From the NCBI RefSeq assembly GCF_015999335.1, contig NZ_JAEACP010000002.1, forward strand, positions 62,001 to 126,000: a stretch of DNA of 64,000 nucleotides. Reading direction: 5' to 3'. Source of the stretch: Tabrizicola soli. GTDB taxonomy: Bacteria; Pseudomonadota; Alphaproteobacteria; Rhodobacterales; Rhodobacteraceae. The notes below the pieces were generated by a model. That model saw nothing but the letters and a program-made list of their open reading frames with translations. It had not been told where the DNA came from and ran no database searches. The number at the start of each line of letters is the position of its first letter. Position 1 is the first letter of the stretch. A program made the translations under genes and the position numbers. Below, piece after piece: positions 9,094-25,454 of the stretch.

Positions 9094-10644
9094 ATGAACG
9101 AAGTCACCAGAACCGCCCGCGCCGGGGGCCGTGGCGCCCGCCGCGCGATGCGCTCGGCCCCGGATTTCGAGATGCTCCCCGCCCTCAAGCGCGGCATCCC
9201 GGAATGCGAGGTCATGGACCAGTCCCGGGTCGAGCAGATCGACAATGCGTCCATGTCGATCCTGGAAGAGGTCGGCGTCATCTTCCGCGACGAGATCGCC
9301 TTGGCCGACTGGAAGCGCGCAGGCGCGAAGGTCGAGGGCGAGCGGGTCTACCTCGACCGGGGTCTCGTGCGCGAACTGATCTCGACCATCCCCTCGGACT
9401 GGACCTACCGGGCGCGGAACCCGGAGAAGAGCCTGCCCTTCGGCGGCAAGCATTCGATCTTCGTGCCGATGACCGGCGCGCCCTTCCTGCGCGACCTCGA
9501 CGATGTGCGGCGCTGGCCGACGATCGCCGACCTGAACATGTTCCACAAGCTTTCCCACATGTCGCCCGCGCTGCATTCCACCGCGCACCACATCGTCGAG
9601 CCGATGGACATGAAGGTTTCCCACCGGCACCTGCACATCACCTATTCCTCGATGAAGCATTCCGACAAGACCTTCATGGGCATGACGACCTCGGGCAAGA
9701 ACGCCGAGGACGTGATGGCGATGTGCGAGATCCTGTTCGGCAAGGATGTGATGGAAGAAACGCCGGTAACCACCGGCAACTGCAACGGCAACTCGCCCCT
9801 GGTCTGGGACGAGACGATGCTGTCGGCGATGCGCGCCTTCGTGAAGCGTCGCCAGCCCGTGTTGTGCTCGCCCTTTGTGCTGGGCGGCGCCAATACCCCC
9901 GCCTCGGTCGCCCCCGCCGTGGCGCAGCTGAACGCCGAAGCGCTGTCGGCGCTGGCCTATACCCAGGTCATCCGCAAGGGCGCCCCGGCGATCTACGGGC
10001 ACTACCTGTCGACGGTTTCGATGAAATCCGGGGCACCGATGGCGGGGACGCCGGAGATCAGCCTGATGAACTTCATGATCGGCCAGATGGCGCGCTACTA
10101 CAACGTGCCGTGGCGGACCTCGAACCTGCTGGGGGGCGCGAAGACCTTCGACGCGCAGGCCGGGTATGAAAGCGCGATGACGATGAACGCGGTGCTCCAT
10201 GCCGGGGCCAACTACATCTGGCACTCCGCCGGCTGGAACGAGGCCGGGATGCATTGTTCGGTCGCCAAGTTCGTGGTCGATGCCGAGATGTGCCAGATGG
10301 GCTACCGCATGGCCGAGGGCCCGCGCTGGGACGATTTCGACGAGGCGATGGCAGCAGTGCGCGATGTGGGGCCGGGAGGGCATTACCTGGGCCACCCGCA
10401 TACGCTGGAAAACTTCGAGCGGGCGTTCTTCATGCCGAAGCTCTTCGACAACAACTCGATCGAGCAATGGCAGGCCGAAGGCAGCGTCGAGATCACCCAG
10501 CGGGCGCTGGACCGGGCGCGGCAGTTGCTGGCCGACTACGAGGAGCCGAAGCTGGACGAAGGCGTCAACGAGGCCCTTCTCGACTACATCGCCCGCCGCG
10601 AACGCGAGATCCCGGCGGTGGACGAGTTGAACACCGAACACTGA
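9094..10644 (+). CDS. Trimethylamine methyltransferase (MttB) family protein, non-pyrrolysine type
   Basis: A 516-residue MttB-superfamily protein (COG5598 type) of normal length, read through without any in-frame amber codon, so it is the pyrrolysine-free form. Characterised non-Pyl members in anaerobes demethylate quaternary amines (glycine betaine MtgB, proline betaine MtpB, carnitine MtcB) with a corrinoid protein. Conserved-looking stretches include MSILEEVGV near 50, TGNCNGNSP near 230 and NLLGGAKTFDAQAGYESA near 350. A strong GGAGG precedes the ATG and a terminator follows, so it is probably monocistronic. No corrinoid protein or reactivase gene is in the window. Given the HpbD, hydroxyproline and ProVWX neighbours, a betaine is the likely substrate (inference). 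Confidence 0.85.
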   Translation: MNEVTRTARAGGRGARRAMRSAPDFEMLPALKRGIPECEVMDQSRVEQIDNASMSILEEVGVIFRDEIALADWKRAGAKVEGERVYLDRGLVRELISTIPSDWTYRARNPEKSLPFGGKHSIFVPMTGAPFLRDLDDVRRWPTIADLNMFHKLSHMSPALHSTAHHIVEPMDMKVSHRHLHITYSSMKHSDKTFMGMTTSGKNAEDVMAMCEILFGKDVMEETPVTTGNCNGNSPLVWDETMLSAMRAFVKRRQPVLCSPFVLGGANTPASVAPAVAQLNAEALSALAYTQVIRKGAPAIYGHYLSTVSMKSGAPMAGTPEISLMNFMIGQMARYYNVPWRTSNLLGGAKTFDAQAGYESAMTMNAVLHAGANYIWHSAGWNEAGMHCSVAKFVVDAEMCQMGYRMAEGPRWDDFDEAMAAVRDVGPGGHYLGHPHTLENFERAFFMPKLFDNNSIEQWQAEGSVEITQRALDRARQLLADYEEPKLDEGVNEALLDYIARREREIPAVDELNTEH

Positions 10645-10657
10645 GTTCCCTGCGACT

Positions 10658-10682
10658 GGCCGCCTTCGGGCGGCCTTTTCTT
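10658..10682 (+). terminator. Intrinsic terminator after mttB-like gene
   Basis: Perfect 7-bp stem GGCCGCC / GGCGGCC with a TTCG tetraloop, followed by TTTTCTT, 14 bp after the stop codon. Confidence 0.85.
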
Positions 10683-10684
10683 AA

Positions 10685-10737: not shown

Positions 10738-10745
10738 CTCTCGCC

Positions 10746-11294
10746 ATGGGCACCAAGGACAGAATCGCCAGCGACCTGGAGCGCAGCTTCGCCGAGGCCG
10801 GCTTTGCCGAGCAGGGGGTCGAGGCTCTGCGTGCCGAGGCGGACGTGTCGCTCCGCACGCTCTACAAGCACTTCCCCAGCCGCGAGGCGATGATCGTCGG
10901 CGCGCTGGAGCATCGCGACGCGACCTATTTCCGCTGGCTGGAGGGCGGGCCGCAGGAGGGTGCCGCGCATGTGCTGCACCCCCTCGTCCGGCTGGGCGAC
11001 TGGCTGGGCGAGGTGGCGAACACCGGCTGCCTGTTCCTGAACGCCTGGGCGCAATACCCCGACAGCGCCGCCATCGAGGCGGTGGTCAAGGACCACAAGG
11101 CTCGGCTTGCCGAGGAATTCCGCCGGCGGCTGGCCCGCGTGGCCCCCGGACGGGACACCGGCCACCTGGCCGAGACGCTGTTCCTGCTGCACGAGGGCAT
11201 GACCCAGGCCGCCCGGCTGCAAGGCCGCGAGATCGCCTATGAAGCCGCGATGCACGCGGCGCGCGCTGCCCTTGCGGCGGCGGAAATCGACTGA
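10746..11294 (+). CDS. TetR/AcrR-family transcriptional regulator
   Basis: A 182-residue TetR-type repressor. The helix-turn-helix is in residues 9-55, with the recognition end VSLRTLYKHFPSREAMI, and an all-alpha ligand domain follows. No good Shine-Dalgarno is seen before the ATG, and the operator ends only 8 bp upstream. It heads a plus-strand operon (11307-15941) with gaps of 12, 16 and 8 bp, then a 4-bp overlap. It probably represses the operon and itself through the twin operator. Inducer unknown; a pathway intermediate is likely. Confidence 0.9.
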   Translation: MGTKDRIASDLERSFAEAGFAEQGVEALRAEADVSLRTLYKHFPSREAMIVGALEHRDATYFRWLEGGPQEGAAHVLHPLVRLGDWLGEVANTGCLFLNAWAQYPDSAAIEAVVKDHKARLAEEFRRRLARVAPGRDTGHLAETLFLLHEGMTQAARLQGREIAYEAAMHAARAALAAAEID

Positions 11295-11306
11295 AAGGGG
11301 AAGGGA

Positions 11307-12398
11307 ATGCCCTCCATGATGTGTGCCGTTCTGCTGACCGGGCACGGCGGCTACGAGAAGCTGGAATACCGCACCGACGTGCCGGTGCCGCAGCCGAAAC
11401 CGGGCGAGGTGCTGATCCGCGTCGCCGCCTCGGCGGTCAACAACACCGACATCAACACTCGCATCGGCTGGTATTCCAAGGCGGTCGGCGAAGGCTCGAA
11501 CGCCGGCGGGGCAGCGGGCTTTGCCGGGGCCGACGACGCCGATGCGAGCTGGACCGGCGAGGCGCTGAAGTTCCCCCGCATCCAGGGCGCGGACGCCTGC
11601 GGGCGGATCGTGGCGGTGGGCGAGGGCGTGGACGCGGGCCGGATCGGCGAGCGGGTGATCGTGCGGAACCTGTTGCGGACCTATGTCGGCTGGAAACCCT
11701 GGGAATGCTGGACCTTCGGCTCCGAATGCGACGGCGGCTTCGCGCAGTTCACCGTCGCGCCCGCGCGCGAAACCTTCGCGGTGAACTGCGACTGGTCGGA
11801 CGCCGAGCTTGCCGCCATCCCCTGCGCCTGGTCCACGGCGGAGAACATGCTCCATCGCGGCAAGGTCGGGGCGGAGACCGTGCTGATCACCGGGGCCTCG
11901 GGTGGCGTGGGCTCTTCCGCCGTACAGCTGGCAAAGCTGCGGGGTGCGACTGTAATCGCACTGGCGGGCAAGTCGAAGACCGAGGAGGTGCTGGCCATCG
12001 GGGCCGACCGGGTGATCGACCGCGATGCGGATCTGGTGAAGGAGCTGGGCAAGGGCAGCGTGGATGTGGTGCTGGACCTCGTCGGGGGACCGGGCTGGCC
12101 GCAGCTTCTCGACGTGCTGAAGAAGGGCGGCCGCTACGTCATCTCCGGCGCCATCGCCGGGCCGCTGGCGCAGATCGACCTGCGTACGCTCTATCTGAAG
12201 GACCTCACCCTCTACGGCGCGACCTTCCAGGAGGACGAGGTGTTCGAGAACCTCATCCGCTACATCGAGGCGGGCCGCATCCGCCCCGTCGTCGCCCGCA
12301 CCTATCCGCTGTCCGAGATCGTCCAGGCCCAGAAGGATTTTCTGGCCAAGGGCCATGTCGGCAAGCTTGTCCTGATCCCCCCTTCCGACAACACCTGA
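11307..12398 (+). CDS. Medium-chain dehydrogenase/reductase, quinone-oxidoreductase-like
   Basis: A 363-residue MDR-superfamily protein: GroES-like N-terminal half, then a Rossmann domain with [19 protein letters not shown] near 192-210. The four-Cys structural zinc loop of classical alcohol dehydrogenases is not evident, so it is nearer the quinone oxidoreductase branch. An alternative ATG lies at 11316. AAAGGGGAAGGG precedes the start. It follows the TetR gene by 12 bp and precedes the HpbD-like gene by 16 bp. The reaction is an NAD(P)H-linked redox step on an unknown carbonyl or enone. Confidence 0.85.
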
Positions 12399-12414
12399 CC
12401 CCGGACCCCTTCCC

Positions 12415-13518
12415 ATGAAAATCAAGGAAATCCACGTCTACGCCCATGACCTGCCGGTCAGGAACGGGCCCTACACGATGGCCAATGCCCAAGTCTGGGC
12501 GCTGGACACGACGCTGGTCAAGATCGTCTCGGACACCGGCCATGTCGGCTGGGGCGAGACCTGCCCGGTCGGCCCCACCTATTGCGCCAGCCACGCCAGG
12601 GGCGCCCGCGCCGCGCTGGAGGAGATGGGGCGGGGCCTGATCGGCGCGTCGCTGCATCCCGTGAGCCTGCGGCGGAAGATGGACAGCCTGCTGAACGGCC
12701 ACCGCTACGCCAAGGCCGCCCTCGACATCGCGGCCTATGACATCATCGGCAAGGCGACGGGCCTGCGCGTGGCCGAGCTTCTGGGCGGCGTGGCGCAGGA
12801 GAACGTGCCCTCCTATTTCGCCACCGGGGTGGGCGAGCCGGATGAGATTGCCCGCATCGCCGCCGAGAAGGTCGCCGAGGGCTATCCCCGGCTCCAGATC
12901 AAGATCGGCGGACGCCCGGTCGAGGTGGACATCGCGGTCCTGCGCAAGGTCTGGGAGGTGATCGGCGGCAAGGGCGTGCGGCTGGCGGCCGATGGCAACC
13001 GCGGCCTGCCGACCCGCGATGCGCTGCGCCTGAGCCGCGAGTGCCAGGAAATTCCCTTCATCATGGAACAGCCCTGCAACACGGTCGAGGAACTGGCGGC
13101 GATCCGGGGACAGGTGCATCACGGCATCTACATGGACGAGAATGGCGAGGATCTGGCGACGGTGATCCGCGCGGCGGGCACGGGGCTGGTCGACGGCTTC
13201 GGCATGAAGGTCACACGGATCGGGGGCCTGCAACAGATGGCCGCTTTCCGCGACATCTGCGAGGCGCGGAGCCTGCCGCATACCTGTGACGACGCCTGGG
13301 GCGGCGACATCATCGCGGCGGCCTGCACCCATATCGGCGCGACGGTGCAGCCTCGGCTGAACGAAGGCGTCTGGCTGGCTGCGCCTTATATCGAAGGCAA
13401 CTACGACAGGACCGGCGTCAACATCGTCGGCGGCCACATCAGGCTGCCGGAAGGGCCGGGTCTGGGCGTGGTGCCCGAGGAAGGCATGTTCGGCAATCCG
13501 GTTCTTTCGTTCGGCTGA
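12415..13518 (+). CDS. hpbD: Enolase-superfamily 4-hydroxyproline betaine 2-epimerase-like protein
   Basis: A 367-residue mandelate-racemase/muconate-lactonising-enzyme family protein. Metal ligands Asp192, Glu217 and Asp240 and opposed catalytic lysines Lys163 (QIKIGG) and Lys264 (GMKVTRIGG) are placed as expected for 1,1-proton-transfer epimerases. From memory the protein, especially [20 protein letters not shown] and [19 protein letters not shown], closely matches HpbD of Pelagibaca bermudensis, which epimerises trans-4-hydroxy-L-proline betaine. The hydroxyproline genes and betaine importer nearby support this. A cis-3-hydroxyproline dehydratase or plain betaine racemase is the main alternative. 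Confidence 0.8.
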
Positions 13519-13526
13519 GGAAGAAG

Positions 13527-14255
13527 ATGAGCGATCTCAAGGGAAAGAAGGCGCTGGTCACGGGGGCCGCGGGCGGCATCGGGGCAGCGGTGGTGCGGGC
13601 GCTGCGGGCGCAAGGCGCGCTGGTGGCGGTGGCGGACCGCGACGTGTCGGGGGTGGAGGCCGAGGCGCATCTGCCGGGGAACCTGCTGGAGCCCGCCTAT
13701 GCCGACGGGCTTCCGGCCGCGGCGAAGGCGGCTCTGGGCGGCCTCGACATCGTCGTCAACAACGCGGGCGTCATCACGCGGGGCAAGGTGGACGAGACCA
13801 CGGACGCCGACTGGGACCTGTCGCTCGGCGTGAACGTGGAAGCGCCGTTCCGCATCTGCCGGGCGGCGATCCCGCTGCTTCCGCCGGGCAGCGCCATCGT
13901 CAACGTCGCCTCCTGCTGGGGGCTGCGGCCGGGGCCGGGGCACGCGGTCTATTGCATGACCAAGGCGGCGATCGCCTCGCTGACGCAGTGCATGGGGATG
14001 GACCATGCGGAGAAGGGCATCCGCATCAACGCGGTCGCGCCGAACGAGGTCAACACGCCGATGCTGCGGACCGGCTTCGCCAAGCGCGGGTTCGATCCGG
14101 ATACCGCCGTTGCCGAACTGGGCAAGACGGTGCCGCTGGGCCGGATTGCCGAGCCCGAGGACATTGCCGACGTGATCCTGTTCCTCGCCTCGGACGCTTC
14201 GCGCTACATGGTCGGCGCGGTGGTCGAGGTGAATGGCGGGAAGCCGGTGAAATGA
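13527..14255 (+). CDS. Short-chain dehydrogenase/reductase (SDR)
   Basis: A 242-residue [11 protein letters not shown] at 12-19, NNAG at 78-81, Ser129, Tyr142 and Lys146. GGAAGAAG precedes the ATG. Its stop overlaps the start of the next SDR (ATGA), so the two are translationally coupled. A pair of coupled SDRs after an epimerase suggests sequential or stereo-complementary alcohol oxidations. Substrate unknown. Confidence 0.88.
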
Positions 14256-14980
14256 GGTTTTCTGGCAAGGTTGCCCTGGTGACCGGGGGGCGGTCGGGTA
14301 TCGGGCAGGCCATCGCGCGCCGTCTTGCCAGCGAAGGCGCGAGGGTCTTCACCGCGCAGCGCGGGGCGGATGCGGAGTTCGAGGGGATCGAGGCCGATTT
14401 CACCGACACCGCCGCCCCGGCGCGGGTCGTCTCCACGATCCTCGCGCGGGCCGGGCGGCTGGACGTGCTGGTGAACAACGCCGGCATGATGCAGGAGGCC
14501 CGGGTCGAGGAGATGAGCCTCGCCGACTGGGAGCGGAACCTGCGGGTGAACCTCACCGCGCCATTCCTGTTCATCCAGGCAGCACTGCCGCATCTGCGGG
14601 CGGCGCAGGGCAGCATCGTCAACATCGGCAGCATCGAGGGGCTGGGGTCGAACCCGAGCCATGCGGCCTATTGCGCCTCGAAGGCGGGGCTGCACGGGTT
14701 GACGCGGGCGGTGGCGGTGGATCACTCGCGCGAGGTGCGCTGCAATGCGGTCGCGCCGGGCTGGATCGACACCGAGCTGAACGAGGCCTTCATCGAGGGG
14801 ATGCCGGACCCGGCCGCCTTCCGCGCCAACATCGGCCGGATCCATCCCGTCGGGCGGACCGGGCGGCCGGAGGAGGTGGCGGCGCTGGTGGCCTGGCTGG
14901 CGAGCGAGGAGGCGGGGTTCGTGACCGGGCAGGTCTGGACGGTGGATGGCGGGCGGATGGCGAAGCTGTCGCTGCCGTGA
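14252..14980 (+). CDS. Short-chain dehydrogenase/reductase (SDR), coupled to upstream SDR
   Basis: A 242-residue [11 protein letters not shown] at 11-18, NNAG at 75-78, Ser127, Tyr140 and Lys144. The start is the ATG of the ATGA overlap at 14252; the frame stays open upstream only as an antisense-like extension through the preceding gene. It differs clearly from its coupled neighbour, so this is not a simple tandem duplication. Substrate unknown. Confidence 0.88.
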
Positions 14981-15053
14981 GCGGGCTTCCAGCCGGACCG
15001 ACGATATGGCATGGCCTGCGCGGACTGACCCTTTGGGACCGCACGAGCAAGCC

Positions 15054-15941
15054 ATGACCCGCCTCAAGGCCCTGCCGGCAGGGGTGCTGGCCATTCTCGG
15101 ATCGGTCTTTGCCATGGCGCTGGCCGATGCGATCATCAAGGCCTCGGCCGGGGGCATGACCCTGTGGCAGATCTGGGTCCTGCGGTCGGCGCTTGTCCTG
15201 CCGGTGCTGTACCTGATGGCGCGGGGGCGCGTCGGCCTGGCCTCGGCCGCCTGGGTTGCCTTGCGCTCTCTGGCGCTGGTCGGGATGTATCTGTCGATGT
15301 ATCCCGCGCTGCCGCTGATCGACATGGCGCTGGCCGGGGCGGCCTTCTACACCGCGCCACTCTTCATCGTCGCGCTGTCGGCGCTGATCCTGGGGAACCG
15401 GGTGACGGCGCGGCACTGGCTGGCGATCCTCACCGGCTTCGCCGGACTTCTGGCCATCGTCCGCCCCTTCGGTGCCGCGTTCACTCCGCTGGTGCTGATG
15501 CCCGTGGCCGCGGCGGCGTTCTATGCCGTCTCGGCGATCCTGACCCGCGCGAAATGCGCCACCGTCGCGCCGGTGGTGCTGGGGTTCTGGCTGAACCTGG
15601 CCTTCCTGGGCTTTGGCCTTGCGGCCCTGACCCTGTTGTCGCTGGGACCGGACCTGCCCTGGGACTACCCGTTCCTCACCGGCGCCTGGGTTCCCGTCAC
15701 GGCCGAGGTCTGGGCGGTCATGGCGACCCTTGCCCTGCTGATGCTGGGGATCGCCATCGGCGTGGCCAAGGCCTACCAGTCCCCGCGCCCCGAGGTCGTG
15801 GCGAGCTTCGACTACGCCTACATGATCTTCGCCGTCTTCTGGGGCTTCATCTTCTTCGGCGAGGTGCCGGACATCTGGACCCTGGTCGGGACGGTGCTGA
15901 TCACCTCGGGCGGGCTTCTCGTGCTGACCGCGCGTGAGTGA
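15054..15941 (+). CDS. EamA/DMT-family inner-membrane transporter
   Basis: A 295-residue drug/metabolite transporter with about ten hydrophobic helices in two EamA repeats, the second starting near 145. The ATG at 15054 begins a short positive N-terminus (MTRLKALPAG) leading straight into helix 1; an ATG at 15006 would add a hydrophilic tail. It closes the TetR-headed operon 73 bp after the SDR, and its stop codon abuts that of the convergent epimerase gene. It could import or export a pathway metabolite. Direction and substrate cannot be read. Confidence 0.85.
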   Translation: MTRLKALPAGVLAILGSVFAMALADAIIKASAGGMTLWQIWVLRSALVLPVLYLMARGRVGLASAAWVALRSLALVGMYLSMYPALPLIDMALAGAAFYTAPLFIVALSALILGNRVTARHWLAILTGFAGLLAIVRPFGAAFTPLVLMPVAAAAFYAVSAILTRAKCATVAPVVLGFWLNLAFLGFGLAALTLLSLGPDLPWDYPFLTGAWVPVTAEVWAVMATLALLMLGIAIGVAKAYQSPRPEVVASFDYAYMIFAVFWGFIFFGEVPDIWTLVGTVLITSGGLLVLTARE

Positions 15942-16994
15942 TCAGGCCCAGATGTCGCCCAGCGTATAGCCGTTCGGCAGCGGGTCCTCGGGGTCGAGGA
16001 CCATGGTGTTGAACCCGTAGATCCAGCTTCTGCCCGAGATCGTCGGCACCACGGCCGCCTTGTCGCCGACCTGTGCCTTCTCCACCAGACGGCCGGTGAA
16101 GACGGTGCCGAGGATGCCCTGGTGGCGGAAATCCCGGTCCAGCGGCAACTCGCCCTTGGCATGGAGGACGGCCATCTTGGCGCAGGTGCCCGTGCCGCAA
16201 GGGCAGCGGTCGATGGCCCCGGTCCAGGTGGCGGGGTCGTCCCAGCTGAGCGGGCCGGTGGCCATGGTGACGGCGTTCTTCCAGTCGGCCTTCGGATCGT
16301 CGCTGGGGCCGGAGAGCTGCGAGATGGTGATGCCGACGCCGGGATAGTCCGGGTGCGCGACGGGGAGCTGCTCGATGGCGGCCTGGCGGATCATGGCGGA
16401 GACGCGGGCGATCTCGCCGCCATGTTCGGGGATCAGCTCAAGGCCCTTGAACTGGCGCACGTCGGCGATGACGTAGAACATGCCGCCCCAGCCGACATCG
16501 ACGCGGACCTTCCCAAGGTGCGGCACGTCGATCTCGGCATCGAGATGCGCGGCGAAGGCGGGGACGTTGCGGAAGGTGACGGACTTGACCTTGCCGCCTT
16601 CGCACTCGGCGCGGATTCGGATCAGCCCGGCGGGGGCTTCGAGGGTCAGCTCGGTCACGGGTTCCTGCATGGGCAGGATGCCGGTCTCCAACAGCACCGT
16701 GGCGACCGAGATCGTGTTGCCGCCCGACATCATCGGATATTCGACCTGCTCCATGATGATGTAGCCGGCCTGAGCCTCGGGGTGGCTGGGCGGGACGAGG
16801 AGGTTGCAGCAATGCGCCGGGTAGCCGCGCGGTTCGCGCAGGACCAGCTGGCGCAGCTGGTCGTCGTTCGCCTCCAGCCATTTCATCTTGTCGTAGACGG
16901 TTGCGCCGGGGATATGGCCGACGCCGCCGGTGATGACCCGCATCGGGATGCCGGAATGGGTGTCGACGGCGGTAATCATGCGCTTGAAGGTCAT
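15942..16994 (-). CDS. Proline racemase-family 4-hydroxyproline 2-epimerase / 3-hydroxyproline dehydratase
   Basis: A 350-residue proline-racemase-superfamily enzyme. The second catalytic Cys is Cys266 (DRCPCGTGTC). The first site is Ser90 in MMSGGNT instead of Cys in the usual CGHG. The family sorts by this pair: Cys/Cys in proline racemase and hydroxyproline epimerase, Cys/Thr in trans-3-hydroxyproline dehydratase, and Ser/Cys in a subgroup with epimerase and sometimes dehydratase activity. With the FAD oxidoreductase, deaminase and semialdehyde dehydrogenase genes upstream, trans-4-hydroxy-L-proline to cis-4-hydroxy-D-proline is the likely reaction. It is the last gene of the GntR operon. 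Confidence 0.8.
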   Translation of the reverse strand: MTFKRMITAVDTHSGIPMRVITGGVGHIPGATVYDKMKWLEANDDQLRQLVLREPRGYPAHCCNLLVPPSHPEAQAGYIIMEQVEYPMMSGGNTISVATVLLETGILPMQEPVTELTLEAPAGLIRIRAECEGGKVKSVTFRNVPAFAAHLDAEIDVPHLGKVRVDVGWGGMFYVIADVRQFKGLELIPEHGGEIARVSAMIRQAAIEQLPVAHPDYPGVGITISQLSGPSDDPKADWKNAVTMATGPLSWDDPATWTGAIDRCPCGTGTCAKMAVLHAKGELPLDRDFRHQGILGTVFTGRLVEKAQVGDKAAVVPTISGRSWIYGFNTMVLDPEDPLPNGYTLGDIWA

Positions 16995-17018: not shown

Positions 17019-17040
17019 GTGGGCAGATTGCCCACCCTAC
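17019..17040. repeat. Degenerate copy of dispersed GGGTGGG palindrome at gene 3' end
   Basis: GTGGGCA and TGCCCAC (7-bp stem, 3-nt loop) followed by CCTAC. The distal end supplies the stop codon of the FAD oxidoreductase read on the minus strand. It resembles the perfect copies at 38490-38516 and 58193-58213 and may act as a transcript-end hairpin. Confidence 0.6.
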
Positions 17041-18377
17041 TCGCGGCCCGCGCGCCATTCCTTGAAGCGCAGGAAGACATTGGCGCCGATGGTCGAGAAG
17101 GGTTTCGGCGGCAGCTTGGCCGGCTGGGCCTCGCGCGCGAAATGGCGGGTGGTGGCGGTGTCCTGCCCCAGGACCAGTTCCGCCGCCGCGATCCCGGTCA
17201 GCGTGCTGCGCGCCGTGCCGAGGCCATTGCAGACGGTGGCGGCGTAAAGCCCCGGCTCAAGCTCGCGCGCGATGGAGACCGCGTTGCGGGTCAGGCACAG
17301 GTGCCCGGCCCAGGTGTATTCCTGTTTCACGTCCTTCAGTGCTGGGAAGCGGTCGGCGAATTTCTGGCGATGGACGGCGGCGGTGCGGCGCAGGGCGGCC
17401 TCGGAGGCCTCCATCCCCGGCAGGAAGCTGGCGCAGGTGCGGGTGACGATGCGGTTGCCGCCAAGGGCGGTGTCGATCCGGCGCATGGTGGTGCCCATCG
17501 GGTCCGAGGGCGTGACGCCCCAGCGCGGGCTGCCGCCAAGGGCTTTCAGCGCCTCCGCGCCAAGGTCCACCGTCATCGAGGCGTAAAGGAAGACATGCAT
17601 CAGCCGGTTCTCGGCAAAGCCGAAGCTTTCCAGATGGCCGTTGTTCGCCAGGATCACCTTGCCCGCCGTCAGCCGGCCCCGCGCGGTGGTCACGGTCCAG
17701 CCCTGGCCCGTCCGCTCGATCGCGGTGACGGGGGTGTTCTCCCAGATGCCCACGCCGGATGCCCGCAGCCCCTCGCCGAAACCGCGCACGAAGCCTGCGG
17801 GTTGCAGCATCACCGTGCCGGGGGTGTAGAGGCCGGAGAGATAGTGGCGGCTGCCGGTCAGCTCCTTCATCCCCTTCGCGTCGAGCCGCTCGTTGGGCTC
17901 GCCCAGGCTGGTCAGATGCTCGGCATAGGAGCGGTTCAGCTTGTCGGCGGTTTCGGAGGCGGCGCCGTTCACCTTGCCCATCGGGTCGAAGTAGTCGGCC
18001 CTGATGCCATAGTCCTGGACCGCGCCGCGCGCGAAGGCGATGGCTTGGCGGTTCAGCGCGATCATCTCGCGGTCGTCGCCGTGGCCGGCGTAGTCGTCCG
18101 AGGTCAGCTCATGCGGCAGGTCGATCATGAAGCCCGAGTTGCGACCCGAGGCGCCCTCGGCGAGGCGCGAGGCTTCGAGGACCGCGACCTTCAGCGCCGG
18201 TTCCATTTCGCGCAGGCGGCGCGCGGCGGCGAGACCGGCGAAACCGCCGCCGACGATCGCCACGTCGACAGTCTGGTCGCCCGGCAGCGGCACCGGCGCG
18301 GGCTGGCCGGGCAGGATCGCGGACCAGGCGGCGGGGCCGCGGTGGACCGGGGTGCGTCTGGCCTGGATGCGGGTCAT
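17037..18377 (-). CDS. FAD-dependent oxidoreductase (DadA/OrdL type), candidate D-hydroxyproline dehydrogenase
   Basis: A 446-residue DAO-family flavoprotein with the dinucleotide-binding VAIVGGGFAGLAAARRL at about 39-55, then an SGRNSGFM flavin motif near 85. Members of this family oxidise D-amino acids or secondary amines to imines. In a hydroxyproline operon the expected step is cis-4-hydroxy-D-proline to pyrroline-4-hydroxy-2-carboxylate. A single polypeptide, rather than a multisubunit HypO complex, is present. The gene overlaps the ProC-like gene by 4 bp. An N-demethylating (sarcosine-oxidase-like) role cannot be excluded. Confidence 0.83.
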   Translation of the reverse strand: MTRIQARRTPVHRGPAAWSAILPGQPAPVPLPGDQTVDVAIVGGGFAGLAAARRLREMEPALKVAVLEASRLAEGASGRNSGFMIDLPHELTSDDYAGHGDDREMIALNRQAIAFARGAVQDYGIRADYFDPMGKVNGAASETADKLNRSYAEHLTSLGEPNERLDAKGMKELTGSRHYLSGLYTPGTVMLQPAGFVRGFGEGLRASGVGIWENTPVTAIERTGQGWTVTTARGRLTAGKVILANNGHLESFGFAENRLMHVFLYASMTVDLGAEALKALGGSPRWGVTPSDPMGTTMRRIDTALGGNRIVTRTCASFLPGMEASEAALRRTAAVHRQKFADRFPALKDVKQEYTWAGHLCLTRNAVSIARELEPGLYAATVCNGLGTARSTLTGIAAAELVLGQDTATTRHFAREAQPAKLPPKPFSTIGANVFLRFKEWRAGRE

Positions 18378-19138
18378 GTCTCTGTCTTCCGTTCGTCAAG
18401 GCCGAGGCGGGAACGGAAACCGTCCAGCCCCCGGCGCAGGTCGTCCTTCGCCGGGGCCATGGCGGCGCGCAGCGTGGCGTTCAGACCGCCCTCGGTGGAA
18501 AGCTTCTGCAGCGCCCCAGCCAGATCGCCGCCATTCGCCCGTTCGGGCAGGTAGCCGCGGATCATCGCGGCGACATAGGCCTCGGCCGCCCCCGGATTAC
18601 CAGTAAAGCCCGCCAGCCAGTCCACCGCCGTCAGGATCTGGTCCAGGATCGGCGAGCAGAGGGCGGAAACGCCGAGATGGGCGTTCAGCGCGGCCTCGGA
18701 CGGCTGCGGCAGGATCAGGTTGCGGGCGCCGAACAGGGTCTCCAGCGCCGGCGAGGCCGGGTAGACCGGCAGCGGGCAGCCGCCCACCGCGATGGGCGGC
18801 AGCGGTATGGTGATGGCGATGTCGGTCGCGGGCGCGCAGAGCCGTTGCAGCGTCGCGATGGGCGCATCGACCATGACGGAGATGATGCTCTGGCCCTGGC
18901 GGAACGGCAGGCCGGGCAGCACCTCCCCGGCCACACGGGCCAGAAGGCAGAGGAACACCACCTCCGAGCCCGCCACCACCTCATCGTTCGGCGCGATGGT
19001 GACTTCGGCCACCTCGGCGGCAAGCTGCGCCGCCATGCCGGCGTTGCGGGGCGAGACCAGGATCCGGTGACCCTGGCCCTTCAGCCCCCGCACCATGGCG
19101 GCGGTGATCTCGCCGGTGCCGAGAAAGCCGATGCGCAT
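18374..19138 (-). CDS. ProC-like NAD(P)-binding pyrroline-5-carboxylate reductase family protein
   Basis: A 254-residue protein starting with the Rossmann motif GFLGTGEITAAMVRGL (4-19), an arrangement typical of pyrroline-5-carboxylate reductase/F420-dependent NADP oxidoreductase proteins. A C-terminal helical domain with GNPGAAEAYVAAMIRGY near 195 corresponds to the ProC dimerisation region. It overlaps the genes on both sides by 4 bp and 1 bp, so it belongs to the hydroxyproline operon. A housekeeping proC is unlikely here; reduction of a cyclic imine intermediate, such as a hydroxypyrroline carboxylate, is a fair guess. Confidence 0.75.
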   Translation of the reverse strand: MRIGFLGTGEITAAMVRGLKGQGHRILVSPRNAGMAAQLAAEVAEVTIAPNDEVVAGSEVVFLCLLARVAGEVLPGLPFRQGQSIISVMVDAPIATLQRLCAPATDIAITIPLPPIAVGGCPLPVYPASPALETLFGARNLILPQPSEAALNAHLGVSALCSPILDQILTAVDWLAGFTGNPGAAEAYVAAMIRGYLPERANGGDLAGALQKLSTEGGLNATLRAAMAPAKDDLRRGLDGFRSRLGLDERKTET

Positions 19139-20631
19139 CAGCCGACAGCCTCGTCCGCGTCGTCGGCCAGGTCGACCCAGATCGTCTTGACTTGGGTATA
19201 CTGGTCATGCGCCTGGATGCCGTTGTCCCGGCCGCCGAAGCCCGACTGCTTGAACCCGCCGAAGGGGGTGGAGATATCGCCCTCGCCGAAGGAATTCACC
19301 GTGACGGTCCCGGCCCGCAGGGCGCGGGCGCCGCGCAGGGCGCGCTTGACGTTGGCGGTGAAGATGCTTGCGGCAAGGCCGTATTCGGTGTCGTTGGCCA
19401 GCGCGATGGCCTCGTCGAAGCTGTCGACGGTCAGGACCGAGAGGACGGGGCCGAAGATTTCCTCCCGGGCCTGCTTCGCCTCGCGCGAGACTTCCAGGAT
19501 CGTGGGTTCGACGAAGCCCTTGTCGGCCTTGCCGCCGAGGACGACCTTCGGCCCCTTCTCGAGGTAGCTGCACACCTTGTCGTAATGGCCCTTCGAGACC
19601 AGCGCACCCACCCGGTTCACCGGGTCGAGCGGATCGCCCATCGGCCATTCGCGGGCATGGGCGACGATGCGCTTCAGAAGCTCGTCCTTCACGCCCTTCT
19701 GCACGATCAGGCGCGAGGAGGCCGAACAGTTCTCGCCCATGTTCCAGAAGGCGCCGTTGACGACATGCGCGGCGACGCGGTCGAGGTTCTCGGCATCGTC
19801 GAGGACCACGGCGGGGTTCTTGCCGCCCATTTCCAGCGTGACTTCCTTGAGGTTCGATTCCGCCGCATAGCGCAGGAAGCGGCGGCCGGTCTCGGTGCTG
19901 CCGGTGAAGGAGACGGCGTCGATGTCCATGTGGCGGCCGATGGGTTCGCCCACGTCCGGGCCGCTGCCGGGGACGACGTTGAAGACGCCGGCGGGGATGC
20001 CGGCCTCCATCGCGAGTTCGGCCATGCGGAGGGTGGTGAGCGGGGTCTCCTCGGCCGGTTTGACGATCACCGAGCAGCCGGCAGCGAGGGCGGGGCCGAT
20101 CTTCCAGGCGAGCATCAGGAGCGGGAAGTTCCAGGGCAGCACCAGACCCACGACGCCCACGGGTTCGCGGACGATCATGGCGATGTGGTTGTCCGACGCC
20201 GGGGCGACCTGGTCGTAGATCTTGTCGATCAGTTCGGCGTGCCAGGCCAGGCAGTTGACAGTTTCCGGCACGTCGACCTGTTCGCAATCATAGATCGTCT
20301 TGCCGGAATCGAGGCTTTCCAGCACCGCCAGTTCGCGGGCGTTGCGCTTGACCAGCTTCGCCAGCTTGATCAGCACCTCTTTCCGTTCCTTCGGGTGCAG
20401 GCGCGACCAGCGGCCGTCCTCGAAGGCGTCGCGGGCCTTCTGGACGGCGAGGTCCACATCCTCGGGCCCGCAGGCGGCGACCTTGGCCAGCACGTCGCCC
20501 GTGGCCGGGTTGATCGTGTCGAAGGTCTTGCCAGAGATCGCGGGGCGGAAGTGGCCGTCGATGAAGGCGGTCGTGGGGAAGGACAGACCGGCGGCGATGG
20601 CCTTGTATTCTTCGGTGGTGAGAAGGGACAT
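19138..20631 (-). CDS. Aldehyde dehydrogenase, candidate 2-oxoglutarate semialdehyde dehydrogenase
   Basis: A 497-residue aldehyde dehydrogenase: substrate-positioning VLPWNFP near 164-170, FTGSTETG near 242-249, general-base Glu267 (LEMGGKN) and nucleophile Cys302 (GENCSASS). The ATG at 20631 is preferred to 20646 because GCGGAG sits about 8 bp before it. It starts 4 bp after the stop of the DHDPS-family gene. The known bacterial hydroxyproline route ends by oxidising alpha-ketoglutarate semialdehyde to 2-oxoglutarate, which fits this position. Confidence 0.85.
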   Translation of the reverse strand: MSLLTTEEYKAIAAGLSFPTTAFIDGHFRPAISGKTFDTINPATGDVLAKVAACGPEDVDLAVQKARDAFEDGRWSRLHPKERKEVLIKLAKLVKRNARELAVLESLDSGKTIYDCEQVDVPETVNCLAWHAELIDKIYDQVAPASDNHIAMIVREPVGVVGLVLPWNFPLLMLAWKIGPALAAGCSVIVKPAEETPLTTLRMAELAMEAGIPAGVFNVVPGSGPDVGEPIGRHMDIDAVSFTGSTETGRRFLRYAAESNLKEVTLEMGGKNPAVVLDDAENLDRVAAHVVNGAFWNMGENCSASSRLIVQKGVKDELLKRIVAHAREWPMGDPLDPVNRVGALVSKGHYDKVCSYLEKGPKVVLGGKADKGFVEPTILEVSREAKQAREEIFGPVLSVLTVDSFDEAIALANDTEYGLAASIFTANVKRALRGARALRAGTVTVNSFGEGDISTPFGGFKQSGFGGRDNGIQAHDQYTQVKTIWVDLADDADEAVG

Positions 20632-20635: not shown

Positions 20636-21538
20636 TTACTCCGCAACGATCTGGGCGATGGTGGTCTTGAGGACGCGCACGGTCTGTTCCAGCTGGCGCT
20701 TGTCGTCCTTGTTGAGCGGTTTCAGCGGCGGGCGCGGCGGGCCGGCATATTGGCCCATCATCTCGCAGCCGTGCTTGATGCACTGGATGAACTTGCCGCC
20801 CTGTTCCAGGACCCGCATCAGCGGCATCAGGGCGGACATGATCCGGCGGCCCTTGTCGAAATTGCCCTCGACCGCGCAGGCCTGCCAGAGCGCCAGGTGT
20901 TCGGCGGGCAGGAAGTTGGACCCGCCGCAGACCCAGCTGCGGGCGCCCCAGGCGAAGAATTCCAGCGCCTGGTCGTCCATGCCGCAGGACATCTGGACAT
21001 GCGGGTAGTCGCGGGCGAGGAGGTGGACGCGGTTGATGTCGCCCGAGCTTTCCTTGATGGCGCAGAAATTGCGGCTGCGGCCGACGCGGTCGAGGAATTC
21101 CTCGCCCATGTTGATGCCCATCCGGCCGGGGTAGTTGTAGAGCATGATCGGCAGGTCGGCGGCGCGGTCGATGGCGAGCGCGTTCAAGGCGTTCTCGCGT
21201 TCGGTCGGGACCGAATAGGGCGGCGAGCCGACGAGGATGCTGTCGGCCCCGATCTTCGCGGCATGTTCGGCCATGGTGAGGCTGTCTTCCAGCCGGATCG
21301 CCACGGTGCCGACCATCAGATGCGTGCGGCCCTTGGTGACCTCGCGGGCGAGCGAGGCCATTTCCAGCCGCTCTTCCATCGACTGGGCGTAATATTCGCC
21401 GGTCGAACCGCCGTTGATGATGCCATGAACGCCCTGGGCGATCAGGTATTCCAGCTGGGCGACGAATGCGTCGCGGTCGATCGAGCCGTCCTCGCGATGC
21501 GGCGTGATGGCGGGGGTGTAGATGCCTTCGAAGTTCAT
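20636..21538 (-). CDS. Dihydrodipicolinate synthase-family lyase, candidate hydroxypyrroline-carboxylate deaminase
   Basis: A 300-residue class I aldolase-fold protein. The Schiff-base Lys is in CAIKESSGD, the catalytic Tyr in MLYNYPGRMG and the GGSTGEYY loop near residue 40 mirrors GTTGE of DapA. The frame is open to 21871, but the ATG at 21538 follows GAGGAG and begins the fold; it overlaps the GntR stop as ATGA. Within this operon its likely role is HypD: deamination and ring opening of delta1-pyrroline-4-hydroxy-2-carboxylate to the 2-oxoglutarate semialdehyde. DapA-type synthase activity is less likely. Confidence 0.83.
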   Translation of the reverse strand: MNFEGIYTPAITPHREDGSIDRDAFVAQLEYLIAQGVHGIINGGSTGEYYAQSMEERLEMASLAREVTKGRTHLMVGTVAIRLEDSLTMAEHAAKIGADSILVGSPPYSVPTERENALNALAIDRAADLPIMLYNYPGRMGINMGEEFLDRVGRSRNFCAIKESSGDINRVHLLARDYPHVQMSCGMDDQALEFFAWGARSWVCGGSNFLPAEHLALWQACAVEGNFDKGRRIMSALMPLMRVLEQGGKFIQCIKHGCEMMGQYAGPPRPPLKPLNKDDKRQLEQTVRVLKTTIAQIVAE

Positions 21539-22257
21539 GCGGCTCCTCGTTGATCGCCAGCCTCGGGCGCCCGGCCAAGCGGGCTCTGGATGCTGGGGGG
21601 GGTGACAAAGCTTTCGATCTGGGCGCGCGACAGCTCCCAATGGGCCACCGCCAGGTCGGCGGCGGCGTCGGCATCGCCGGCCTCGATCAGGGCGATGAAG
21701 GTGTCGTGCTGGTCGGCGGCGGTGGCCGAGACACAGGCCATCGCCTCCTTGCGCGGATTGTAGAAGGTCATCCCGATGCGGGTATGGTCGATCAAGAGCC
21801 GGCGGAGGCTGGGCATCAGGAACTCGTTGTCGGCCATCTCGCCGATCACGGAATGGAACCGCTGGTTCCACAACGCCCGGTCCGAGGCATTGCCCGAGGC
21901 AATGGCCTTGCGGAAGGAAACCTGCGTGTCCTTCAGCCAGGCGATCTGGGCCGGGGTGGCATGTTCGGCCGCCAGCCGCGTCACGGCGGCATAGATCATC
22001 GGGGCGGCGACGAAAAAATTGCGCAGCGTCTTGTGCGACATCGGGGCCACTTGCGCGCCCCGGTTCTCATGCAGCACAACATAACCCTCACCCTGCAACT
22101 GGCGCAGGACCTCGCGCAGCGGAGGGCGCGAGATACCATAGGTCTCGGCCAGCTCGGTCTCGTCGAGATAGGCGCCGGGCTCCAGAATCTGGGTCAGGAC
22201 CTTGCGGCGCAGGTCCTCGATGCACTGGGTCTTCTTGCTGCGCGGTTCTGCGTTCAC
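21535..22257 (-). CDS. GntR-family (FCD domain) transcriptional regulator, GTG start
   Basis: A 240-residue regulator: N-terminal winged helix (YLDETELAETYGISRPPLRE within about 35-55) and an all-helical FCD ligand domain with His residues for metal or ligand binding. The GTG at 22257 is chosen because CAGGAG lies 7 bp upstream; an in-frame ATG at 22293 lacks a ribosome site. It heads the minus-strand hydroxyproline operon, coupled to the deaminase gene by ATGA, and faces the ABC importer. It probably controls both directions from the intervening 138 bp. Confidence 0.88.
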   Translation of the reverse strand: MNAEPRSKKTQCIEDLRRKVLTQILEPGAYLDETELAETYGISRPPLREVLRQLQGEGYVVLHENRGAQVAPMSHKTLRNFFVAAPMIYAAVTRLAAEHATPAQIAWLKDTQVSFRKAIASGNASDRALWNQRFHSVIGEMADNEFLMPSLRRLLIDHTRIGMTFYNPRKEAMACVSATAADQHDTFIALIEAGDADAAADLAVAHWELSRAQIESFVTPPSIQSPLGRAPEAGDQRGAA

Positions 22258-22378: not shown

Positions 22379-22395
22379 CCGGGGGGAGATTCTGC

Positions 22396-23466
22396 ATGGC
22401 CGAGGCCCGAGAGGACGTGATCCGCTGCGAAGGCATCTGGAAGATATTCGGCGACAAGTCGCGCCAGGCGATGGAGGCCGTGCGGTCCCAGGGCCTGTCG
22501 AAGAAGGACATTCGCGAGAAATTCGACTGCGTGGTGGGCGTCCAGAACGCCAGCTTCACCGTCGGCCGGGGCGAGATCTTCTGCATCATGGGCCTGTCGG
22601 GATCGGGCAAGTCGACGCTGATCCGCCACATCAACCGGCTGATCGAGCCGACCTCGGGCGCGGTCTATATCGAGGGCCAGAACGTCAATGCGATGAACGC
22701 CGAGGCGCTGCGCAAGCTGCGGGCCGAGAAGATCGGCATGGTGTTCCAGTCGATGGCGCTGATGCCGCACCGCACCGTGCGCGATAATGTCGCCTTCAGC
22801 CTGGAGGTGCGCGGCAAATCGGAGGCCGAGCGCGCGAGGGTCGCGGCCAGGGCGATCGAGATGGTGGACCTCACCGGCTGGGACGCGAAATATCCCGACG
22901 AACTGTCGGGGGGCATGCAGCAGCGCGTGGGCCTGGCCCGGGCGCTGGCGGCAGATCCGACGATCCTCTTGATGGACGAACCCTTCAGCGCGCTCGACCC
23001 GCTGATCCGGCGGCAGTTGCAGGGCACCTTCATGGAGCTCTCGGCCGAACTCCACAAGACCACGGTCTTCATCACCCATGACCTCGACGAGGCGATCCGC
23101 ATCGGCGACCGCATCGCAATCATGAAGGACGGGGTGCTGGTGCAGATCGGTACTCCGGAAGAGATCGTGACCGAGCCGGCGGATGACTATGTCGCCGAAT
23201 TCGTGGCCGGGATTTCCAAGCTGGACCTGGTGACGGCGGCGCGGATCATGCAGCCCTTCGCGGCCCATGTGCAGGCGCAGGGGCCGCAGGATACCGCGAG
23301 CTGGCCGGTCGGGCGGCCGGAGATGAACCTGAACGAACTCGTCGACCTGGCGGTCGGCACCGACCATCCGATCCTGATCGCCTCCGAGGGCAAGCCCGTC
23401 GGCGTGGTGACCAAGCGCGCGCTTCTGCGCGGCATCCAGGGACGCGAAGAAGAGAGGGCTGCCTGA
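22396..23466 (+). CDS. proV: Betaine/proline ABC importer ATPase (ProV/OpuAA type)
   Basis: A 356-residue quaternary-amine-transport ATPase. Walker A GLSGSGKS is at 66-73, signature LSGGMQQR near 175 and Walker [13 protein letters not shown] near 195. The ProV-specific N-terminal insertion (residues 22-46, with LSKKDI) is present. The C-terminal tail past 290 is only a remnant of the CBS-type region. The ATG at 22396 follows a strong GGGGGGAG. It overlaps the permease gene by 1 bp (TGATG). Energises uptake of glycine betaine, proline or related betaines. Confidence 0.92.
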
Positions 23467-24404
23467 TGGCCGACAAGACCTTCGACTGGCTGAACCCCTT
23501 CGGCTCGATCGATCTCGGCATCGCCAACTGGGCGGACGGGATCAAGCAGTGGGCGATTTCCAACCGGGACCTGATCCAGCCGACCAAACGGTTCTTCGAG
23601 ACGGTGATCACCGGCATCGAGAGCGCGCTGCACTCGGTGCCGCCCCTGGTGATGCTGGCGGTGCTGGTGCTTGTGGCCTGGCAGACCGCGGGGCGGCGCA
23701 CCGCGATCCTGGTCGGAGCCTGCCTGCTGATCCTCGGGATCCTGGCGCCCGAGGCCTGGGGCCTGGCGATGACCACGCTGGCCATCGTGATCGCCTCGGT
23801 CATCCTTTGCGTGCTGATCGGCCTGCCCCTGGGCGTGCTGGCCGGAAAGAGCGATCGGTTCGAGGCCTTCATCCGCCCGATTCTGGACACGATGCAGACG
23901 ATCCCCGCCTTCGTCTATCTGGTTCCGGTCGTGATGATGATCGGGATCGGCAACGTCTCCGGCGTCATCGTCACCATCATCTTCGCCCTGCCGCCGCTGG
24001 TCCGCCTGACCTCGCTGGGCATCCGCGGCGTGAACCCCTCGGTGGTCGAGGCCGCGCGGGCCTTCGGGGCCTCGCCGGGCCAGATCCTGCGCAAGGTCGA
24101 GCTGCCGCTGGCCACGCCGACGATCCTCGCGGGGCTGAACCAGACGATCATGCTGTCGCTCTCGATGGTGGTGATCGCCTCGATGATCGCGGTCAAGGGC
24201 CTGGGCAACGAGGTGCTGCGGGCGATGGGGCGGCTGGATGCCGGCAAGGCCATCGTCGGCGGCCTCGGGATCGTGATGCTGGCCATCGTGCTGGACCGCA
24301 TCACCCAGGGTCTGGGCCGTTCCGGCCGCGACAAGGGACACCGCCACTGGTGGCAGACCGGGCCCGTCGGCCTGCTGACCGGGCTTTTCGCAAAACGCGG
24401 CTGA
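23466..24404 (+). CDS. proW: Betaine/proline ABC importer permease (ProW type)
   Basis: A 312-residue inner-membrane permease with six or so helices. The EAA loop carries [27 protein letters not shown] spacing around 185-205 for ATPase docking. The hydrophilic N-terminus (1-60) is typical of ProW. It is coupled to proV and is followed 54 bp later by the binding protein. The order ATPase-permease-binding protein matches proVWX. Confidence 0.92.
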
Positions 24405-24458
24405 AGAACCTGCGAGCAACAAGAATCTGACTGTAAAATCAACAAGGAGACACCACTG

Positions 24459-25454
24459 ATGAAGATGTTTACCCTCACCACCGCGCTGGCGCTCTTGCTG
24501 GCGGGGCCGTCCCTGGCGCAAGATCCGAACAAGCCCGGCGAGGGCAAGGATCCGGTCCGCGTCGTGATGCCGGCGCAGATCGAGGAGCACTTCCACCACT
24601 ACGTGCTGCTGCGCGCGCTGCAGGAACTGGGCTACGAGACCGCCGAGCCGATGGAAGCCGAATACCAGACCATGCACATCGCCATCGGCGGCGGGGATGC
24701 GGATTTCACGGCCAACCACTGGCACGCGCTGCATGCCGCCTTCTTCGAGGAATCCGGCGGCGCCGCGGTGATGTCCAAGGTCGGCGTCCTGATCGAGGGC
24801 GCCCTGCAGGGCTATCTGGTCGACAAGGCCAGCTATGACGCGGGCGTCACCGATTTCACCATGCTGAAGGACCCCGAGGTCGCCAAGCGCTTCGACGCCG
24901 ACGGCGACGGCAAGGCCGATCTGGTCGGCTGCACCCCCGGCTGGGGCTGCGAGCGGGCGATCGAGTTCCAGCTGACCGAATACGGCCTGCGCGACACCGT
25001 GACCCACAACCAGGGCGCCTATCAGGCGATCATCGGCGACGCCATCGCGCGGCATGCCAACGGCGAGCCGATCCTCTACTATACCTGGACGCCCTACTGG
25101 GTCTCGGGCGTGCTGGTCCCGGGCAAGGATGTGGAATGGCTGAGCGTGCCCTATACCGCGCTGCCCGAAGGCAGCGAGGGCCTGAACACCATCGTCGACG
25201 GCAAGAACGTGGGCTTCGGGGTCGAAAGCGTCGGCGTCCTGGCCCGCAACGACTTCCTCGAAGCCAACCCGGCCGCCGCGAAACTGTTCGAAGTGGCGAA
25301 GATCCCGGTCAACGACGTCTCGGCCCAGGCGCTGGAAGTGTCGAAGGGCGCCAATACCGACGAGGCGATCTGGGCCCTGGCCGACAAGTGGATCGTGGAC
25401 AACCGCGCCACCTTCGACGGCTGGCTGACCGAAGCCCGCGCCGTGGCGCAGTGA
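24459..25454 (+). CDS. proX: Betaine/proline ABC importer substrate-binding protein (ProX type)
   Basis: A 331-residue periplasmic binding protein (OpuAC domain) with a signal peptide cleaved near residue 21 (GPSLAQ). Aromatic residues that could form the betaine cage include HYW-type contexts such as ANHWHA and YYTWTPYW. AAGGAG precedes the ATG. A strong terminator follows. The exact ligand (glycine betaine, proline betaine, hydroxyproline betaine) cannot be read, but the neighbours favour a proline-derived betaine. Confidence 0.9.
   Translation: MKMFTLTTALALLLAGPSLAQDPNKPGEGKDPVRVVMPAQIEEHFHHYVLLRALQELGYETAEPMEAEYQTMHIAIGGGDADFTANHWHALHAAFFEESGGAAVMSKVGVLIEGALQGYLVDKASYDAGVTDFTMLKDPEVAKRFDADGDGKADLVGCTPGWGCERAIEFQLTEYGLRDTVTHNQGAYQAIIGDAIARHANGEPILYYTWTPYWVSGVLVPGKDVEWLSVPYTALPEGSEGLNTIVDGKNVGFGVESVGVLARNDFLEANPAAAKLFEVAKIPVNDVSAQALEVSKGANTDEAIWALADKWIVDNRATFDGWLTEARAVAQ

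Follow-up and report, generated by a model that had tools for sequence, protein, structure and literature searches.

The window analysed here is a 64,000-nucleotide stretch of the Tabrizicola soli genome (C12:62001-126000; the genome comprises 4.68 Mb in 57 contigs), and our subject is a gene cluster within it that encodes an MttB-superfamily methyltransferase, an HpbD-type betaine epimerase and the enzymes of a hydroxyproline-type ring-degradation module. Judged from its sequence, the cluster probably takes one methyl off hydroxyproline betaine by B12 methyl transfer, in place of the oxygenase known for this step. With gene limits set by a codon-usage gene caller, the cluster begins on the forward strand with the methyltransferase, which lacks pyrrolysine and is a proposed (hydroxy)proline-betaine:corrinoid methyltransferase (9094..10644; PF06253 full length, 727 bits). 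A TetR-family regulator follows after 101 bases (10746..11294; PF00440), and then, on the same strand, a Zn-type alcohol dehydrogenase (ADH)/quinone-reductase family protein to which we assign no role (11307..12398; PF00107/PF08240), the HpbD-type betaine 2-epimerase (12415..13518; MR_MLE; 281 of 366 residues identical to 4e8g), two short-chain dehydrogenases/reductases (both PF13561), SDR 1 (13527..14255) and SDR 2 (14252..14980), and an EamA-family transporter (15054..15941; PF00892, scored on the longer frame 14946-15941). From the TetR gene through ADH, HpbD and SDR 1 to SDR 2 the spacing is operon-like (12, 16, 8 and -4 bases).

The reverse strand carries, in its own reading direction, a GntR/FCD regulator (21535..22257; PF00392/PF07729), a dihydrodipicolinate synthase (DHDPS)-family protein, DapA, proposed to be a HypD-type deaminase (20636..21538; PF00701; lysine of the KESSGD motif at 162), an aldehyde dehydrogenase (ALDH), the proposed 2-oxoglutarate-semialdehyde dehydrogenase (19138..20631; PF00171, scored on the frame from 20646), a pyrroline-5-carboxylate reductase (P5CR)-like protein, again with no role assigned (18374..19138; NF005063 at 144.6 bits, below the cut-off of 254), a DAO-family FAD oxidoreductase, the proposed oxidase of (N-methyl-)cis-4-hydroxy-D-proline (17037..18377; PF01266), and a 4HypE-like proline-racemase-family protein with a Ser/Cys dyad (15942..16994; PF05544). 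The DAO, P5CR-like, ALDH, DapA and GntR genes are also spaced like an operon (-4, -1, 4 and -4 bases). Beyond them lie, on the forward strand, a ProV-type ATPase (22396..23466; PF00005), a ProW-type permease (23466..24404; PF00528), a ProX-type betaine-binding protein (24459..25454) and, as a possible further member, an AraC/DJ-1-type regulator (25521..26471; PF12833/PF01965), homologs of which, at 57-78% identity, are present in many HpbD loci. A first-pass annotation had named MttB, HpbD, the racemase-family protein, HypD, ALDH and ProVWX here, and all of them were verified, with the MttB start at 9094 and the ProX stop at 25454. By domain profiles, D-amino-acid oxidase (DAAO), DHDPS and ALDH occur together in the window, the combination expected of a hydroxyproline (c4Hyp) module. 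Among the NCBIfam matches listed for ten proteins (the best 25 for four of them), none was above its model cut-off.

The epimerase is the most readily recognised of these proteins. It matches 4e8g, 2pmq and 4h2h, which we take to be HpbD structures, at 645, 519 and 519 bits, and the best match beyond these three reaches 215. Lys 163 (in KIGG) and Lys 265, presumably the catalytic pair, and Trp 320, presumably the cage position, are all in place, and the NCBIfam model for cis-3-hydroxyproline dehydratase scores 263, below its cut-off of 500. The nearest relatives are Rhodobacterales records, for example from Tabrizicola, Fuscovulum and Fuscibacter, and from these we infer that the source organism is an aerobe. 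For ProX, the best match in the PDB is the Escherichia coli protein (1r9l, with the identical sequence 1r9q; 296 bits), with which it has three Trp-containing motifs in common; these are presumably the betaine cage, and we take the 1r9q structure to contain proline betaine.

The association of MttB with HpbD was surveyed in named loci for the best 80 of 165 HpbD relatives found, Ruegeria, Leisingera and Tabrizicola among them, an MttB ortholog being counted at 65% identity or more. Such an ortholog is present in 54 of the 80 loci, in 45 of them on the same strand and within 2.5 kb, and the 54 come from 25 named genera of the Roseobacteraceae, Paracoccaceae, Rhizobiaceae, Phyllobacteriaceae and Stappiaceae. 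The SDR pair, which is possibly an oxidoreductive C4 epimerase pair, occurs in 49 of these 54 loci versus 5 of the 26 HpbD loci without MttB, and the full DAO/ALDH/DapA set in 44 versus 5. Fifteen of the 80 loci have less than 7 kb of flank on one side or more; with full-flank loci only, the proportions are 45/47 against 3/18 for the SDR pair and 41/47 against 2/18 for DAO/ALDH/DapA. Three loci (L013, L056 and L061) hold a piece of MttB by gene call, in L013 and L061 close to a contig end, and were left out of the MttB count. Among 198 genomes of the family, including the source genome, an HpbD ortholog (at least 60% identity) is present in 12, and 11 of these 12 have the MttB ortholog (Fisher p 2e-6; the Fisher tests here and below ignore kinship, and the HpbD loci are phylogenetically non-independent). 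In eight loci (L035, L036, L037, L044, L050, L059, L063 and L087) a second MR/MLE homolog, 28-33% identical to HpbD, adjoins HpbD together with the Zn-type ADH.

The methyltransferase also keeps company with the ring-degradation genes where HpbD is absent. We read 38 neighbourhoods from the 42 MttB genomes without HpbD, and found DAO in 31, ALDH and DapA in 32 each and GntR in 29; all three enzymes were present in 31, one or two of them in one, an old yellow enzyme (OYE)-type gene without any of them in three, and none of these genes in the remaining three. The recurrent order is GntR-DapA-ALDH-MttB-DAO, and one sampled locus, L145, holds a remoter HpbD homolog (48%). The HpbD label switches 12-13 times over the MttB tree, at least nine of the switches being forced by well-supported branches. 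From these neighbourhoods and label switches it follows that the core unit is MttB with the DAO/DapA/ALDH module, HpbD and the SDR pair being accessories that were repeatedly gained or lost. The seven other MttB loci of the genome (14-20 kb each) served as a control, and none has the DAO/DapA/ALDH set, the nearest approach being lone ALDH homologs (36% on C55, 29% on C6). With an MttB ortholog in 54/80 HpbD loci and the full module in 31/38 HpbD-less loci, we therefore conclude that MttB belongs to (hydroxy)proline-betaine catabolism.

Within that assignment, MttB might act on plain proline betaine, as MtpB does, with HpbD, the SDRs and DAO kept for a hydroxylated form that is handled otherwise. 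The three HpbD-less loci with an OYE-type gene and no DAO, DapA or ALDH (L142, L144 and L150) speak for this, the OYE-type gene reading like an N-methylproline demethylase. We nevertheless hold it unlikely for the cluster, since 32 of the 38 HpbD-less loci retain at least one gene of the set (31 all three), and MttB often stands between ALDH and DAO, when free proline should need none of the set. The loci L142, L144 and L150 are themselves a possible plain proline-betaine variant. A P5CR-like reductase beside MttB or the module was also observed in L128, L135, L137 and L142-L144, from scattered genomes.

The methyltransferase itself aligns with positions 1-500 of the 500 in the PF06253 profile and lies in a 525-amino-acid open frame without an internal stop (no in-frame amber). 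It is one of eight PF06253/MttB members in the source genome, and is 47% identical to 4yyc, 45% to its nearest own paralog (on C26) and 39% to Desulfitobacterium hafniense MtgB (2qne). Orthologs with at least 71% identity, two of which are partial, occur in 53 of the 198 family genomes; among the matches listed, the following one drops to 48%. They form a single clade with a support of 100, although long branches among the paralogs leave the order of the latter unsure. Its predicted reaction takes a methyl group off a quaternary amine and places it on a corrinoid protein.

It could be argued that such an enzyme is a general quaternary-amine methyltransferase, acting on glycine betaine, choline, carnitine or another amine, and a mere neighbour of the hydroxyproline genes. 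Members of the family do use many quaternary amines (PMC12478193, PMC8604678, both in the portions available), Ruegeria MtgB belongs to the same Pfam family, and the window ProX resembles the glycine-betaine binder 1r9l. The clade of the window MttB is separate, however, and falls outside the glycine-betaine MtgB group as represented by D. hafniense MtgB; the linkage to HpbD extends to Rhizobiales, and the full module recurs in the HpbD-less loci. We consider a general role quite unlikely.

The first-pass annotation had called for a search of the whole genome for corrinoid proteins, and this yields one MtgC-type protein with homologs of its partners. The PF02607 profile finds a single protein in the genome, on C6, which also has PF02310; as it is the only one, no classical MetH is seen. 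Its best NCBIfam model is MtgC (199.6 bits, below the cut-off of 370), and its gene is grouped with a DUF1638 gene (PF07796; L101:8922-9554), a radical-SAM gene and a homocysteine S-methyltransferase gene (PF02574; L101:11835-12842). An MtgD-like pterin protein (PF00809; L165:7465-8445) and a RamA-like reactivase with RACo domains (L162:4590-6638) are encoded on C1. All these homologs of MtgC, MtgD, MtgE, RamA and DUF1638 proteins were assigned by domain and context, rather than against the Ruegeria sequences. Another pterin protein, on C13, was considered as MtgD and rejected: it is FolP-like and lies between FolB-domain and phosphoglucomutase-family genes, and the C1 copy fits. MetF2 was not identified, the MtgD neighbour at L165:8461-9399 having no Pfam match and no search having been aimed at MetF. 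The gene for this 312-amino-acid protein has the MtgD-like gene on one side and a 'Virulence_fact' (PF13769) gene on the other, and its product is possibly connected with cobalamin methyl transfer. In two loci, L012 and L014, a homocysteine S-methyltransferase homolog (26-27% identical to the MtgE-like protein), conceivably a dedicated methyl acceptor, lies about 2.5 kb upstream of MttB (∼4.8-5.9 kb); the gene calls of the window, where Pfam was run on part of the stretch, include no homocysteine methyltransferase upstream of MttB.

The same partner set has been described for methionine synthesis in Phaeobacter (PMC5764234, in the part available). In Ruegeria pomeroyi, according to the available sections of PMC12478193 (PNAS 2025), the split methionine synthase serves glycine-betaine demethylation as MtgBCD: MtgB is of the PF06253 family, and both MtgC and MtgD are required. 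Up to seven Ruegeria PF06253 open reading frames are suggested there to act on other methylated compounds, and in those sections proline betaine is named once, for Eubacterium (PMC12478193). One corrinoid protein, MtqC, is common to several MttBs in Eubacterium limosum (PMC8604678, in part). In the 174 near-complete family genomes, MtgC is missing from eight and any MttB match from eight, with an overlap of five (p 2e-6); in all 198 genomes the corresponding numbers are 13, 8 and 5 (p 3e-5). Two genomes have the MttB ortholog without MtgC, G068, which is 76% complete, and G160, which is in 460 contigs. Very probably, then, as far as can be read from gene content, the methyl acceptor is MtgC of the split methionine synthase.

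The first-pass annotation had stated that the interval 9094-25454 contains no Rieske-type demethylase gene, which is true for the proteins examined, and had called for a search of the entire genome. That search, with the PF00848 profile, gives two Rieske oxygenases (Ring_hydroxyl_A), Rieske proteins outside PF00848 being able to escape it: one at C4:∼119.7 kb, distantly and weakly like carnitine monooxygenase, and one at C57:∼16.5 kb, VanA/dicamba-demethylase-like and accompanied by a reductase. That one of these does the demethylation and makes MttB dispensable is highly improbable, for neither matches the HpbD-linked Rieske enzyme of Paracoccus at E<=1e-60, and no MttB, HpbD or module homolog of at least 40% identity lies in the 20 kb around either gene. 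With the same query and limit, 48 of the 198 family genomes do have matches, which in 36 reach at least 53% identity. Of the 80 HpbD loci, 10 have a Paracoccus-type Rieske gene (at least 50% identity), 3 have it together with MttB, and 19 have neither. The Rieske gene thus occurs in 3 of 54 loci with MttB versus 7 of 26 others (p 0.011; in L042, one of the seven, it is 9 kb off), and the SDR pair is absent from all seven Rieske-only loci. Strict exclusivity of MttB and Rieske genes was rejected as a rule in view of their co-occurrence in 3/80 loci and 6/198 genomes, and what is left is a tendency near HpbD. The proposal that MttB stands in place of the Rieske step is thus partly supported by its linkage to HpbD and the module, by the corrinoid set and by the lack of an HpbD-linked Rieske ortholog, and the co-occurrence reduces replacement to a tendency.

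We propose the following route, which as a whole we consider likely. ProVWX would import the betaine, and HpbD would epimerise it at C2 to cis-4-hydroxy-D-proline betaine. MttB would then charge cob(I)alamin with one N-methyl; the cofactor would be carried by the only MtgC-type protein of the genome, whose gene lies on a different contig. From there the methyl would either reach tetrahydrofolate by way of the MtgD-like protein or be used by the homocysteine methyltransferase to form methionine, while the RamA-like and DUF1638 proteins would hold the cobalamin reduced. Demethylation of the resulting N-methyl-cis-4-hydroxy-D-proline would fall either to the DAO of the cluster or to a flavin enzyme encoded elsewhere, such as the OYE-type protein at C1:343455, and DAO, DapA and ALDH would convert the ring to 2-oxoglutarate. 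The parts, their spacing, their conservation and the homologs of the corrinoid set are observed; the individual catalytic steps, the substrate and the partnership of MttB with MtgC are deduced from them.

Several observations weigh against this route. In the stretches of DNA examined, 26 of the 80 HpbD loci have no MttB ortholog. Conversely, 42 of the 53 family genomes with the MttB ortholog have no HpbD at 60% identity or more, so that the substrate of MttB is not proved to be that of HpbD. Substrate stereochemistry is unexplained in the HpbD-less loci, since besides HpbD being absent a linked racemase-family gene occurs in 1 of the 38. MttB and Rieske genes do co-occur, as described, and at the genome level their avoidance is not significant (53 and 36 genomes, p 0.15). 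The presence of MtgC discriminates weakly because it is found in 185 of the 198 genomes. The window DAO gives only short, weak alignments with the two DAOs encoded beside racemase-family genes in the same genome (C1 and C2), and for the second N-methyl there are several rival candidates, of OYE type, P450 and DAO.

MttB probably removes the first N-methyl only. For the non-pyrrolysine enzyme MtyB, the available part of the source reports the quaternary amine as the main substrate, no detectable activity with the tertiary product and weak activity with a secondary amine (PMC8604678). Since non-pyrrolysine MttBs work chiefly on quaternary amines, a different enzyme is probably required for the second N-methyl, a point that the first-pass annotation leaves aside. 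The best candidate for its removal is the OYE/trimethylamine-dehydrogenase-type protein at C1:343455, which is 67% identical to a Paracoccus protein encoded 7 kb from HpbD; the source genome has two more OYE homologs, on C19 and C26. OYE-type genes are present in 4 of the 54 MttB and HpbD loci, and a search of 138 stretches gave P450 genes in 5 (at ∼11.1-12.3 kb in L022, L023, L024 and L040, and ∼6.2-7.4 kb in L145), which makes both candidates only. The slot between HpbD and SDR 1 is filled by an OYE gene in L048 and by a P450 gene in L022-L024 and L040, where the latter is a possible alternative N-demethylase or ring hydroxylase. This filling of the slot counts against DAO as the second demethylase. 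In favour of DAO, where HpbD is absent and the set is complete, 28 of 31 loci lack both an OYE-type gene and that P450 gene over the stretch read, the exceptions being L115, L119 and L145. It is conceivable, if doubtful, that the module is specialised for the N-methylated ring, with DAO oxidising N-methyl-cis-4-hydroxy-D-proline, the DapA-type enzyme opening the N-methyl iminium and freeing methylamine, and the SDRs interconverting the C4 epimers. If so, one methyl would enter the B12/folate/methionine pool and the other would leave as methylamine, no second demethylase would be required, and SDR interconversion would admit all stereoisomers of hydroxyproline betaine.

The proline-racemase-family gene had been put forward in the first-pass annotation as a step of the route. 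Its Ser/Cys dyad is known for a 4HypE (PMC4113996, in the part available). We rejected it as an essential step and regard it as a local addition: such a gene occurs in 3 of the 54 MttB and HpbD loci and 1 of the 38 HpbD-less loci, and HpbD would already yield the D form, so it is not core.

Comparison with known systems locates what may be new. The HpbD/Rieske route for hydroxyproline betaine, reportedly worked out in Pelagibaca and Paracoccus (Zhao 2013, Kumar 2014), is matched by the window in the HpbD ortholog, the betaine importer and ring degradation of the DAO/DapA/ALDH type; the differences are the lack of an HpbD-linked Rieske ortholog in the source genome, the place of MttB in the HpbD operon and the added SDR pair. 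Like the MtgBCDE system of Ruegeria pomeroyi (PMC12478193), the present one is from the Rhodobacterales and has a PF06253 enzyme and homologs of MtgC, MtgD, MtgE, RamA and DUF1638 proteins, but its MttB, in a clade that excludes D. hafniense MtgB, is associated with HpbD and DAO/DapA/ALDH. MtpB of Eubacterium limosum is a proline betaine:MtqC methyltransferase (PMC8604678); it resembles the window MttB in superfamily, in a substrate of the proline-betaine type (proposed here) and in the use of one common corrinoid protein, a likeness by description and not by sequence, and its host, an acetogen, is different.

The trans-4-hydroxy-L-proline pathway (4HypE/DAAO/DHDPS/ALDH) employs the same superfamilies, again with a Ser/Cys dyad in the racemase-family protein (PMC4113996). 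The source genome has further clusters of hydroxyproline type on C1 (DapA, DAO and a Ser/Cys racemase-family protein), C2 (DAO and a Cys/Cys protein) and C34 (DapA and a Ser/Thr protein), which presumably serve free amino acids. Two of them, on C1 and C2, combine racemase and DAO, and the window DAO and DapA diverge strongly from theirs, the window DapA being 26-33% identical to the DapAs of the other clusters.

Corrinoid demethylation in an aerobe, which the first-pass annotation had suggested, is not new in kind, because the same machinery has been published for glycine betaine in an aerobe, R. pomeroyi, where MtgBCD does this (PMC12478193). It is the substrate branch that appears new, namely a clade of MttBs tied to ring degradation of the hydroxyproline type and, over part of its range, to HpbD. 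Our literature searches, which covered titles and abstract openings and few subscription papers, found no MttB described beside HpbD or for hydroxyproline betaine, and, among the papers listed, none with 'MttB' and 'hydroxyproline' together. If the route is correct, hydroxyproline betaine would have a second turnover route that relies on vitamin B12 and not on an oxygenase, and in aerobic Alphaproteobacteria the split methionine synthase would be a hub into which several MttBs feed methyls from several osmolytes, beyond glycine betaine. Many MttB genes, eight of them in the source genome, have no assigned substrate, and the route would predict one for this member. Another of these, a paralog on C26 (L095, 3.4-11.3 kb), seems to share an operon with genes for ProX, ProV, ProW, an OYE-type dehydrogenase and an AraC regulator, and looks like a second betaine-specific MttB system.

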